DNA of 64,000 nucleotides from the NCBI RefSeq assembly GCF_001854325.1, contig NZ_CP017754.1, positions 2,356,001 to 2,420,000 of the forward strand. Direction: 5' to 3'. The stretch's first letter is position 1; each line of letters begins with the position of its first letter. This DNA comes from Cupriavidus malaysiensis. Lineage in GTDB: Bacteria > Pseudomonadota > Gammaproteobacteria > Burkholderiales > Burkholderiaceae. Below the pieces are notes generated by a model. The model did not search any database, was not told the DNA's origin, and worked only from the letters and a program-made list of their open reading frames with translations. Of the stretch, positions 28,716 to 32,512 are shown piece by piece. A program made the translations under genes and the position numbers.

Positions 28716-29130
28716 TCAAAGAGCCTCGACCGTCGGCTCGCCGACAGCAAGCACGTCGACACACAGTGTCTCGGTGATGACGGCGAAGTGCTGCAAGCCG
28801 TCGAACTGCCGACAGGTATCCGCGGCGAAGCGAGCGAGATATTCAGATTGTCGAACGCGATAGAAGCAGCCGCGGCCGAGTCCAGTGGACCGGGCGGCTT
28901 CGCCGTCGAGATCGCTCTCGTCACGTCGCTGATAGGCCGCGGGCGATGCGAAGGCAAGACGCAGGATGCGGTCGATCTCATGGTTGCGCAGCAGCAGACG
29001 AAATCCTTCCCAGTCTTCGAGAACGCTTTCGATGGATACGCGGGGGGAGCCATCGGGAAGGATCTCCCAAAACTCATACCTTTGCTGCGTGGCCGTCCTT
29101 TCAGAGATGGCGAATCTTGAACACCTTCAT
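28716..29130 (-). pseudogene. Frameshifted small gene coupled to the second immunity-like gene
   Basis: ATG at 29130 overlaps the stop of the upstream immunity-like gene as ATGA, the classic sign of translational coupling. The frame opens MKVFKIRHL and hits TGA after nine codons. In the next frame a protein-like sequence runs on without a stop to TGA at 28716 (segments SERTATQQRYEFWEILPDG, SIESVLEDWEGFRLLLRN, GCFYRVRQSEYLARFAA, LQHFAVITETLCVDVLAVG). The break falls in CATCTCTGAAAG; restoring one lost CT unit (CTCTCT) would join the two parts into 138 residues. The protein family is not recognised. It could be another immunity or accessory gene. A sequencing error or programmed frameshift is possible. 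Confidence 0.55.
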
Positions 29131-29579
29131 ATCAGCTTGCGTGGTGGAGGGCGATCGTACTCCGGATAAGCGTGGCGCCAGTCCGCCCCGCCAACACGCT
29201 TGCCCTCTTCCATGATCATGAGCGTATTCCCAGGCTTCGGATACGCAGTGAGTGGGCGCCCGTCCATTCGATCGATATCAAAGATATCGATCAGGTAGGC
29301 CGTGGGCGTCTTCATCAGGATCGCATAGATGAGGACTGGTATGCCCTGATCCAGGGCGATCAGATCCCGTCCGAGCGTGATGGCGTCGCAGCCGCTTTTC
29401 TCAGTTGCTTCATCATGAACGACCGCAAGATAGTAGGAATCTCCAATTTCACGTACTCGGCAGGTTTTGATCGGTGCTCGCCATTGCAGCGTCCGCTTCC
29501 CGTATAGGGGCTCGCAGACTTCAATCAGGAAGTCCAACAGGGCGCGCTCGTGGGGAGCCAGGGGGCGAGAAAGTGCCAT
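29127..29579 (-). CDS. Probable immunity protein, copy 2
   Basis: 150 residues, about 85% identical to the neighbouring copy at 29723-30175 by eye. Shared blocks include LLDFLIEVCEPLYGKRTLQW, KTCRVREIGD, YYLAVVHDEATEKSGCDAIT and DIDRMDGRPLTAYPKPG. Differences cluster at the N-terminus (MALSRPLAPHER vs MSQPRPLAPHEF) and the C-terminus (ADWRHAYPEYDRPPPRKLI vs ADWSRFYQDTVLAPPRKLL). I do not recognise the family. Its place directly downstream of an Rhs gene with a variable tip, its small acidic nature and its duplication suggest immunity to the Rhs toxin. Its stop overlaps the start of the next, frameshifted gene. GC content is visibly lower than in the core genes. Confidence 0.75.
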   Translation of the reverse strand: MALSRPLAPHERALLDFLIEVCEPLYGKRTLQWRAPIKTCRVREIGDSYYLAVVHDEATEKSGCDAITLGRDLIALDQGIPVLIYAILMKTPTAYLIDIFDIDRMDGRPLTAYPKPGNTLMIMEEGKRVGGADWRHAYPEYDRPPPRKLI

Positions 29580-29722
29580 TCAGATTCCTGAGACAGAGGT
29601 AGTCGGATAGAGCCGACGCGGACCCGCGGGGATTCCGGAGGTGCGGTCCCTGGCTTCCTCGGCAAGAGCGTGCGTCCGCGTGGTCTGCCACGGCTTGTCA
29701 TGTCAATCGGGCAACGTCTGAA

Positions 29723-30175
29723 TCAAAGCAGCTTGCGGGGTGGGGCGAGAACAGTGTCCTGATAGAAGCGACTCCAGTCTGCCCCGCCGACACGCTTGCC
29801 CGCTTCCATGATCATCAGGCTATCGCCCGGCTTCGGATAGGCCGTGAGTGGGCGCCCGTCCATTCGATCGATATCGAAGACATCGATCAGGTAGTCGGTT
29901 GGCGTCTTCATCAGAGTCGCATAGATGAGGACTGGCACGCCCTGATCCACCGCAATCAGATCCCGTCCGAGGGTGATGGCGTCGCAACCGCTTTTCTCAG
30001 TTGCTTCATCATGAACGACCGCAAGATAGTAGGGATCTCCAATTTCACGTACTCGGCAGGTTTTGATCTGTGCTCGCCATTGCAACGTTCGCTTTCCGTA
30101 TAAGGGCTCGCAGACTTCGATCAGGAAGTCCAGTAAGGCAAATTCGTGCGGAGCTAGAGGTCTAGGTTGTGACAT
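29723..30175 (-). CDS. Probable immunity protein, copy 1
   Basis: 150 residues, begins 12 bp after the Rhs stop on the same strand, so the two are surely co-transcribed. It is the near-duplicate of the gene at 29127-29579. It has no signal peptide or membrane segment, so it would act in the cytoplasm, where an imported Rhs tip toxin would have to be neutralised. The family is unrecognised; 'immunity' is an inference from position next to the Rhs tip. The region of high DNA similarity covers nearly the whole gene, pointing to a recent tandem duplication. Confidence 0.78.
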   Translation of the reverse strand: MSQPRPLAPHEFALLDFLIEVCEPLYGKRTLQWRAQIKTCRVREIGDPYYLAVVHDEATEKSGCDAITLGRDLIAVDQGVPVLIYATLMKTPTDYLIDVFDIDRMDGRPLTAYPKPGDSLMIMEAGKRVGGADWSRFYQDTVLAPPRKLL

Positions 30176-30187
30176 ATCAGGTCAGCT

Positions 30188-32512
30188 TCATTGGCGCGGT
30201 GGTCGTATCGATCCGACACGAATCTCACCTGCTGAAGGTCTATACGACGAATACTCGATCGGAATGCCGTCGACTAAAACCGTGAAGGTCTTCCCGTCGC
30301 CGCCGATCGGTAACTGATGTCCATTTTCCTCCAGGTCTTTCTCGATCGCTCGCTTGACCGGTTCTCTGGGGATACCTTTCGCATCAAGGTGGCGGTATGT
30401 GTGATTGATCTGATTGGCATTCCGCCCCCAATTGACCTCGAACCCCTTGTTCGGCGCCGGCTTGCACTTGCTGCCCGCCATTGCGGCGATGCCCCAGGCG
30501 GCGCCGACGATCGGGCGCAGGCCTGGAACCATGCACTCGAGGCATACCGGGTCAAGTCCGGCTTCCGTCGGGCGCTCCCGTTGCAGCCCGTCCCGTTGAA
30601 GGAGCGGTGGCGCCCGGGCTGGATGCCGGTCGTCTAGTGGTTGCCAGAACCAGCCATCCAGCGCCTCGCGCGACACGGGCTGCGGCGGCCCCCCCTTGAG
30701 GGAGACCATCGCCTTACGCGACACCACGCGCCCATCCGGTGCGAACGCATAGTCCACCGTCAGCTTGTAGCCGAGTCCGAAATACTGGAACTGGCTGACG
30801 CGGCCACGCGCATCGTAGGCAAGGCGGACTTCGTCATCGAAGCCGTTGAGCAGGTGCGTGATGCGCTGCGCCGCATCCCTGGACAGGACACGGATGGGCC
30901 AGAATTCCGAAGGCTGGCGCTCATGCAGTAGACGCAGGTTCCCTGCTTCGTCGTACCGGAATACGGAGTACTTGGTCCACGCGTCGTTAGCTGCGTCTAG
31001 CTGGGATGAAACGCGGCCGTTGGCATCGTAGGACCATCCGAGCGTCGTCTTGGACCCGGTGGACTGCGCGCCGAATCCCTTCGCCCCGGTCGGATCATCC
31101 GTCGCCAGGTCGCTGAAGCCACCCAGGCGACCCTGCTCGTCATAGGCATAGGCGCGCAAGGCGCCCGGTGCGGCGATCAGCGCCGGACGGTCGCTGCCCG
31201 CCTGCGCGTACTGGAAGCTGGTGCGCCGCGCTCCATCGGTCGCGCTGGTGTAGACCTGGGTGATGACACGGCCGAGGGCATCGTATTGGTAGTCAGTGCG
31301 GGCGCCACCGGCATCGGTCTCGCTGGTGATGCGGCCTGCCGTGTCGTACACCGTACGGGTGGTTTCGCCGCTGCTTGCGCTGCTGCCGGTCGGGCGCAGC
31401 TGTCCGGCGATCTTGCTGAAGCGGAGCGTCGTGCTGCTGCGGCTGTCGGTCAGCGTCGTGGTGCCATGGCCATAGCTGAACTGGACGTTGCGAGCACTGT
31501 CCGGGTGGCTGACCGCGATGGCGCGGCCCTGCATGTCGTACGTATAGCTGGCGATGCGCAGGCCGCTCTCATCGATGACGCCGGTCAGCACATAGGGGAA
31601 GCGGGCATCGCCATATTCGAAGCGCCGCACATAGCCATCCGGCCAAGTCACCGTGACGAGATTGCCGCGTGAGTCATAGCCATAGCGCGTGGCCGCGCCA
31701 CCAGGGCTGGTCATCTGTGCCAGCCGGTTCTGGCCGTCGTAGGTGAATTGCAGCGTGACGCCGAACCCGTCAGTCAAGGCGACCAACAGGCCCGGCGAGG
31801 TATTGCTGTACTGCAGTGTGGTGGTGCGCCCGGCGCCGTCCGTGACCGACTCAAGCCGGCCGGAGGCCGTATAGGATTCGGTCTCTCCGCTGATGCGGTC
31901 GTACAGTGACCAGCCGCCTCCGCCCGCGGCCGGAGAGAGCGTCAGCGGCTCCCCGCCGCTGGTACGCCACGCGCCGCCGGCCTGTTCGAACGTCGCGCGC
32001 TTGCCATCCGGCCGATAGGCTTGGACTCGCGCGGGATTCGACGTTGCCCTTGACAGCCCGAGCTGGCGCTGCCACGGATGCATCCAGTTCGGCCCGAACC
32101 CGCTCTGCGGGCGGACATAGGGCGCGGAGCGGAAGGTGCGCGTAAACCGCAGCGGCACGTCGCTACCGCTGGTGAAGTCTGTTTCGGTAAGCGTGACCAC
32201 CCCGCTGGCCGGATAGACCGGGTCGGCCACGGGGCAGCTCGATTCCGTGTCGCCAGCCGCAGGCGCACCGCAGTACTGGTCGATGAGCTCCCGCCGGTTC
32301 GGGCAATGGTAGCTGCCCATCCCGACCGGCGTGTTGCCGGCGACGTCCAGGGGACAATTTCGCGAACCCGGGATGGCGCCCGAGAGCGGATAGAGGGCAA
32401 AGCAGGTGTCCTCGGCACGCGCAGCGGTGACGGCCATCAGAAGCGCGAGGACGGCGAAGATGCGCAGCAGTGCGTTGCGCCCCGAAACTAGGCGCGGGAA
32501 GGAAAACCCCAT
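30188..32512 (-). CDS. Small Sec-exported Rhs/YD-repeat protein with a C-terminal toxin-like tip
   Basis: 774 residues. A signal peptide (LLRIFAVLALLMAVTAARA) is followed by a Cys-rich N-terminal segment, a DUF6531-like start (DPVYPASGVVTLTETDFTSG, FTRTFRSA) and YD repeats from about 210 to 600 (YGYDSRGNLV, YQYDALGRVI, YAYDEQGRLG, WSYDANGRVS, FRYDEAGNLR). It is about half the length of a classical Rhs and lacks the usual PxxxxDPxGL core end. After about residue 640 comes a different tip: LECMVPGLRPIVGAAWGIAAM and then a basic module with NQINHTYRHLDAKGIP, VKRAIEKDL and IRVGSIRPPR. GC falls in the last 400 bp, as expected for an exchanged tip. Start set by an aggaggt-like ribosome binding site. 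The toxin role is inferred. Confidence 0.85.
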   Translation of the reverse strand: MGFSFPRLVSGRNALLRIFAVLALLMAVTAARAEDTCFALYPLSGAIPGSRNCPLDVAGNTPVGMGSYHCPNRRELIDQYCGAPAAGDTESSCPVADPVYPASGVVTLTETDFTSGSDVPLRFTRTFRSAPYVRPQSGFGPNWMHPWQRQLGLSRATSNPARVQAYRPDGKRATFEQAGGAWRTSGGEPLTLSPAAGGGGWSLYDRISGETESYTASGRLESVTDGAGRTTTLQYSNTSPGLLVALTDGFGVTLQFTYDGQNRLAQMTSPGGAATRYGYDSRGNLVTVTWPDGYVRRFEYGDARFPYVLTGVIDESGLRIASYTYDMQGRAIAVSHPDSARNVQFSYGHGTTTLTDSRSSTTLRFSKIAGQLRPTGSSASSGETTRTVYDTAGRITSETDAGGARTDYQYDALGRVITQVYTSATDGARRTSFQYAQAGSDRPALIAAPGALRAYAYDEQGRLGGFSDLATDDPTGAKGFGAQSTGSKTTLGWSYDANGRVSSQLDAANDAWTKYSVFRYDEAGNLRLLHERQPSEFWPIRVLSRDAAQRITHLLNGFDDEVRLAYDARGRVSQFQYFGLGYKLTVDYAFAPDGRVVSRKAMVSLKGGPPQPVSREALDGWFWQPLDDRHPARAPPLLQRDGLQRERPTEAGLDPVCLECMVPGLRPIVGAAWGIAAMAGSKCKPAPNKGFEVNWGRNANQINHTYRHLDAKGIPREPVKRAIEKDLEENGHQLPIGGDGKTFTVLVDGIPIEYSSYRPSAGEIRVGSIRPPRQ

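Follow-up and report, generated by a model that had tools for sequence, protein, structure and literature searches.

Positions 28,716 to 32,512 of the window (the whole 64,000-nucleotide stretch of Cupriavidus malaysiensis DNA analysed here; the host genome comprises three contigs and 7.95 Mb) contain a gene for an Rhs-type protein and, downstream of it, several small genes. A first-pass annotation had described them as an exported Rhs protein with tandem immunity-like genes. Our analysis supports and extends that interpretation: the locus very probably encodes a polymorphic toxin together with its immunity genes, the toxin being borne by a short Rhs carrier exported through Sec. This reading rests on sequence comparisons, which revealed the carrier family, its variable end, the linkage of tip and partner gene, the sharing of the toxin module with other carriers, the relic of a second tip and the absence of the unit from relatives at this site. 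The features of the locus are as follows.

30188-32512, minus strand: Rhs open reading frame (ORF), 774 residues counted from ATG.
32414..32512, minus strand: Sec-type signal peptide, residues 1-33, a hydrophobic N-terminus ending AARA/ED (judged by eye).
32225..32413, minus strand: N-terminal domain with five cysteines (C37, C53, C70, C81, C93), whose columns are kept across carriers.
30653..32224, minus strand: short YD-repeat core that begins with DUF6531 (residues 97-175), from Pfam and NCBIfam.
30533..30544, minus strand: CxxC closing the conserved core (C657, C660), from the alignment of carriers.
30464..30532, minus strand: variable, hydrophobic-rich neck ending in the single pre-toxin cysteine C683 (SKCKP), from the tip alignment.
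30191..30463, minus strand: predicted toxin module, residues 684-774 (about 91 residues), delimited by relatives on other carriers, which start about here, and modelled with AlphaFold2.
29723-30175, minus strand: putative immunity gene 1, 150 residues, 12 bp past the Rhs stop; its family follows window-type tips in 7/7 cases.
29582..29644, minus strand: remnant of a second tip's final codons (..RVGSIR..), by motif match to the tip end.
29127-29579, minus strand: putative immunity gene 2, 150 residues, a paralogue with 84% identity to gene 1, probably of a displaced cassette.
28716-29126, minus strand: third open frame, a possible further immunity relic, related by alignment to a 124-residue family.

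The 774-residue YD-repeat protein with its Sec-type signal was as first described. Its only Pfam matches above cut-off were RHS repeats (9.9e-38) and DUF6531 (8.4e-13), and a YD repeat match in NCBIfam (2.3e-27) indicated that a YD/RHS repeat core is present. The tip had no Pfam match and was left unnamed by NCBIfam and PADLOC as scanned. The Rhs-associated core (TIGR03696), the site of autocleavage in classical Rhs proteins, was not found in the window protein, in agreement with the earlier remark that a classical core end is missing. The claim that no VgrG or PAAR partner lies nearby also held: neither was found in the window, and on the same contig the ORF is separated by about 82 and 96 kb from the nearest VgrG genes and by about 78 kb from the nearest PAAR gene. 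Genome-wide, there were five VgrG places and four PAAR places. Guanine-cytosine content, computed over 300-base segments, was lower across the tip and immunity genes (0.51-0.63) than in the core (0.61-0.71) or upstream (0.67-0.74), which bears out the lower value reported for the tip.

A near-identical protein, P0020, differed from the window Rhs protein at 14 of 774 residues, all within residues 503-536 (30905-31006), a stretch in which the YD core varies most family-wide as well. This may perhaps be a local diversifying patch, shaped by target recognition or gene conversion. Two more Rhs frames (889 and 934 residues; core identity 39-40%) were present on the third contig (G000:C3:19026-23999).

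The carrier belongs to a family with variable ends. With P0022, a 796-residue protein of Paraburkholderia solisilvae, as query, matches were found in 53 of 144 Paraburkholderia-like genomes, up to seven per genome. Among the 111 matches listed, 80 ended at query residue 680-695 (59 of them at 680-682), 13 reached the end, 15 were shorter and three ended in between; the tip is thus not a conserved core part of all homologues, a possibility raised at the outset. The 80 matched regions were aligned with the window protein and P0022 to give 82 rows. The core ended at the CxxC, with both cysteines, in 81 of them, the last row (L096) being a truncated frame. We grouped 75 tips by their last 70 residues, omitting P0022, which duplicates L086, and six rows whose ends were short or broken, and counting once the loci L013, L015, L016 and L019, which by tip sequence equal L089, L097, L086 and L090. 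Seven groups were obtained: E1 with 37 tips, E2 with 18, E3 with 13, E4 with 3, E5 with 2 and two singletons. The window tip belongs to E3. Different tips were found on close cores (L086/L088; L089/L091/L092), and the family therefore shows the conserved core with an exchangeable C-terminal tip that characterizes Rhs/YD polymorphic toxins.

A simple hydropathy and AxA rule (not SignalP) gave a signal-like start in 78/82 carrier rows; two of the four misses had no N-terminus in frame. TIGR03696 was detected in 0/44 scanned short carriers, the window protein included, and that library did detect it in classical proteins bearing this tip. PAAR was likewise detected in 0/44 at E values up to 0.001, the distances to VgrG and PAAR genes being those of the window ORF only. 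Neither trait of classical type VI Rhs effectors, the Rhs-associated core or a PAAR domain or VgrG/PAAR neighbour, was thus found.

The gene that follows the Rhs ORF depended on the tip type. In the window, a candidate cognate immunity gene lies directly downstream, at the 12-bp distance already reported, and all seven window-type tips were followed by this 150-residue family. E3 comprised these seven loci (window included) and six with another family, and the two partner sets corresponded to two tip subtypes that are about 20% identical; the sister tips had their one family in 6/6 cases, with a DUF6984 match in 4/4 tested (5.7e-12 to 4.7e-06). One partner family accompanied E2 in 18/18 loci, one accompanied E5 in 2/2 and a third accompanied E4 in 3/3. 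E1 had two partner families (19 and 16 loci) and two loci without a shared partner. Across 72 loci, 484 of 830 pairs from the same tip group shared their next gene, and the maximum in 10000 label shuffles was 223; this statistic is a guide and not a probability, as the loci are related and the partner was defined as whichever family near the stop was shared by most loci. The variable tip and the tracking of partner family with tip type support the toxin/immunity order originally proposed. One of the sibling tips has a named activity: the E4 tip, present in 3/44 carriers scanned, is a Colicin E5 ribonuclease domain (1.7e-28).

The largest group, E1 (37/75), consisted of cysteine-rich tips, mostly of 121-127 residues, with partner genes of about 75-150 residues; in 14/19 loci, its first partner family started 16 bases upstream of where the Rhs stop ends. 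A Pfam scan of two E1 tips and one more tip returned no family. L088, whose core is close to that of L086, carried tip E6; a member of the window's immunity family lay 529 bp farther along and may reflect a displaced cassette.

We then considered the small genes themselves. The two 150-residue genes had been called a tandem immunity-like pair, and they are indeed paralogues. Their divergence (nonsynonymous, dN, 0.092; synonymous, dS, 0.439; dN/dS about 0.21) indicated that both have been under constraint since they split, so that the locus shows the tandem paralogues kept under selection of a homogeneous polyimmunity locus. The second gene seems to be part of a displaced cassette. In the 143-bp spacer between the immunity genes, a frame ending PRVRVGSIRLPLSQES matched the tip end EIRVGSIRPPRQ. 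Across all six frames of the window, RVGSIR occurred at exactly two places, namely the tip and the spacer; shuffling the bases of the spacer 200000 times produced it in 3 cases. This relic suggested that immunity gene 2 probably had its own toxin, that is, that it once sat behind a second toxin of the same kind which is now mostly lost. Among 11 named Paraburkholderia loci, six had a full or partial tip with immunity and five had immunity only, with no tip detected in the stretches examined; at L014, three immunity copies stood in tandem, the first one broken.

A search with the immunity protein listed 19 proteins, one of them the query; the closest named relative came from Cupriavidus sp. USMAHM13 (82%). 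The family was found in 10 of 398 family genomes and 2 of 25 genera, and the order of tip then immunity gene was also present in another genus. The listed relatives and the recurrence of the gene order indicated that the arrangement is more than chance. Further downstream, the third frame, whose stop is the left edge (28716) of the region first annotated, belongs to a family of 124 residues with 16 proteins listed. It has no usual start codon at the position where its relatives begin. An intact relative, P0023, is 98% identical, and the family was matched in 2 of 398 family genomes, one being the window's own.

The toxin module was not confined to these carriers. A profile built from five tips detected four places besides the window in 399 genomes of the order, and a wider profile searched against 398 genomes of the phylum detected two more outside short carriers, as well as a sister tip on a short carrier. 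At L170 (positions 1-2126), from a genus relative, a tip relative ends a 2983-residue haemagglutinin-repeat frame (Fil_haemagg_2, 3.2e-13) and is followed by a DUF6984 gene. Tip relatives followed an Rhs-associated core at L172 (3.3e-19), L173 (2.8e-21; its tip match was weak, 4.8e-07) and L167 (1.8e-05, under cut-off). At L168 an Rhs-associated core above cut-off lies downstream of the tip, whose own carrier runs off the contig, and at L169 the tip frame is severed from an Rhs-like frame.

The next gene at these other carriers encoded DUF6984 (PF22480) in 6/6 cases (E 1.3e-31 to 2.4e-10). Pfam, NCBIfam and PADLOC named neither of the window's 150-residue proteins, and a DUF6984 match was found in 0/20 members of their family at E values up to 1. 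In profile-profile comparison, the family nevertheless matched DUF6984 proteins with 93.2% probability (E 2.9e-07, 111 columns) and four members by themselves with 89.3%, against 0.2% for the control, the third frame's family. Judged by these profiles, the immunity family is a remote relative of DUF6984. Together with the tip-partner linkage, this kinship runs counter to the proposal that the small proteins might belong to a family unrelated to toxin loci. The profile search suggested for tip and small proteins thus placed the immunity family, which had been called unrecognised, and returned no Pfam family for the tip, which keeps that description.

The variable C-terminal end was confirmed, and the toxin module within it was shorter than the last 130 residues first suggested for the profile search, covering about 91 residues after Cys683. 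Its AlphaFold2 model (pLDDT 84.5) showed a RelE/ParE-like arrangement at middling scores. G15, N19, Q20 and H23 of the module were conserved in 11/11 members of a set that included other carriers, and His23 was kept in 13/13 rows of a wider set. The best guess for the module, from the model, is a cytosolic ribonuclease (RNase), an activity that we consider fairly likely.

The comparison with relatives that had been proposed indicated that the unit is absent from this site in 46 genus relatives. Among 60 genus genomes, 58 had a PrpF match and 56 an asparaginase match, and by our own tally the two lay on one contig in 47. The gap between them was 4724 bp in the window and 123-1743 bp in the other 46. 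It was about 1.7 kb in 14 of these 46 and 123-849 bp in the remaining 32, and something else may have inserted at the site in some of them. When the Rhs protein was searched against the 60 genomes (E <=1e-60, self excluded), matches were 32-40% identical and stopped at residue 527-584.

The carriers shared a fixed cysteine pattern. Seven core cysteines were conserved: the five N-terminal ones in 78, 78, 75, 79 and 79 of 79 rows (three broken rows omitted) and the CxxC in 79/79. Exactly one cysteine, located in the neck immediately ahead of the toxin, was present in 38/38 non-E1 tips, and in 30/38 it stood in CKP. The YD stretch of about 570 residues was cysteine-free in 38/38 non-E1 carriers. 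Eight cysteines followed the signal in 38/39 non-E1 rows, of which P0022 and L086 represent a single protein; only L136 deviated, its frame as used lacking the N-terminal part. In E1 carriers, the number of cysteines was 12 or 14 in 36/37 cases and nine in one. As the N-terminal set is odd, full oxidation needs at least one disulfide to the C-terminal side. The eight cysteines and the missing Rhs-associated core suggested a disulfide neck in place of autoproteolysis. A disulfide latch on the toxin is, from this pattern, a tentative proposal. That these proteins form a class of short Burkholderiaceae Rhs weapons in which a redox latch replaces autoproteolytic release is conceivable, if somewhat doubtful.

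We propose the following scheme. The carrier would be exported via its signal peptide and would fold in the periplasm around the cysteine-free YD shell, held by disulfides among the five-cysteine domain, the CxxC at the core end and the cysteine of the toxin neck. It would then leave the cell; type II secretion, to which the signal peptide and precedent point, is the leading candidate route and quite possibly the one used. The toxin would stay tethered while oxidised outside the cell and be released on reduction in the victim's cytosol, where the C-terminal module, having entered, would cut RNA with a BECR-type fold. Both 150-residue proteins would remain cytosolic and block the module, the second answering to a related toxin whose gene was displaced. 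That the tip is toxic is the firmest part of this scheme and in all probability correct.

One finding tempers the picture of exchangeable ends. On the core tree of 74 labelled carriers there were 11 tip-type changes, where nine is the minimum for ten types and the shuffled mean was 46; the tips mostly appear to follow the core lineage with some exchanges, a weaker pattern than free swapping. YD proteins can have surface roles, which would fit a variable end that serves recognition or adhesion, with the small proteins as chaperones and no toxin involved. We regard this as highly improbable: a colicin RNase domain forms the sibling tip, a haemagglutinin-repeat frame also terminates in this module, the partners track the tips, and there are immunity genes without tips as well as a tip relic. 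Nor is the protein at all likely to be cargo of the genome's type VI system with an incidental signal-like N-terminus. The VgrG and PAAR places elsewhere in the genome favour that possibility, but none lies within about 78 kb, none of the 44 carriers has the Rhs-associated core, which the library used does detect where classical carriers bear this tip, the signal-like start recurs in 78 of the 82 rows, and the cysteine sets are fixed and even. The less distant alternative, still unlikely, is a toxin of the same small fold with another task, such as ParE-like gyrase poisoning; the invariance of His23 (13/13 and 11/11) and the RNase domain on the same carrier type argue against it.

A toxin-immunity unit of this kind would contribute one toxin module and one immunity branch, both unnamed in the libraries scanned, and its short carrier class has a fixed cysteine neck. 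It links DUF6984, an unannotated domain, with immunity and draws attention to a Gram-negative Rhs family that seemingly works without type VI parts or the usual self-cleavage. The fixed cysteine pattern also offers a directly testable answer on how such Sec-exported Rhs proteins could release their toxins.

DUF6984 itself (PF22480) is the next gene after the same tip on six other carriers; the window proteins are longer and lie below Pfam detection. With CdiA/CdiI contact inhibition, the unit shares the tip relative at the end of the 2983-residue haemagglutinin-repeat frame and the DUF6984 gene behind it, whereas carrier and presumed export route differ. The RHS polymorphic toxins of the Sec/type II secretion class have a signal peptide, RHS repeats, a variable C-terminal toxin, an immunity gene and homogeneous tandem immunity genes (Zhang et al. 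2012, PMC3482391). The window unit has the same signal peptide, repeats, variable end and tandem homogeneous immunity genes; it differs in its short core without the Rhs-associated core, its CxxC and single pre-toxin cysteine, and in tip and immunity families that lack names in Pfam, NCBIfam and PADLOC as scanned. Bcn-A of Xanthomonas perforans is an RHS-family bacteriocin with its own immunity gene, and its activity was lost in an xpsD (type II secretion) mutant (PMC7259588). Both it and the window protein are Gram-negative RHS proteins with their own immunity gene; Bcn-A has 1398 residues and further genes reported as needed, compared with 774 residues and no accessory gene noticed here. In the bacterial teneurin-like protein BiTLP, the disulfide C719-C2216 ties the toxin end to the N-terminal plug (PMC13018210). 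BiTLP differs from the window carrier in having an aspartyl autoprotease site and in being far longer (residue numbers above 2200), but both combine a YD shell with a small variable end that is toxic or, in the window protein, predicted to be so, and the BiTLP disulfide parallels the latch proposed here.
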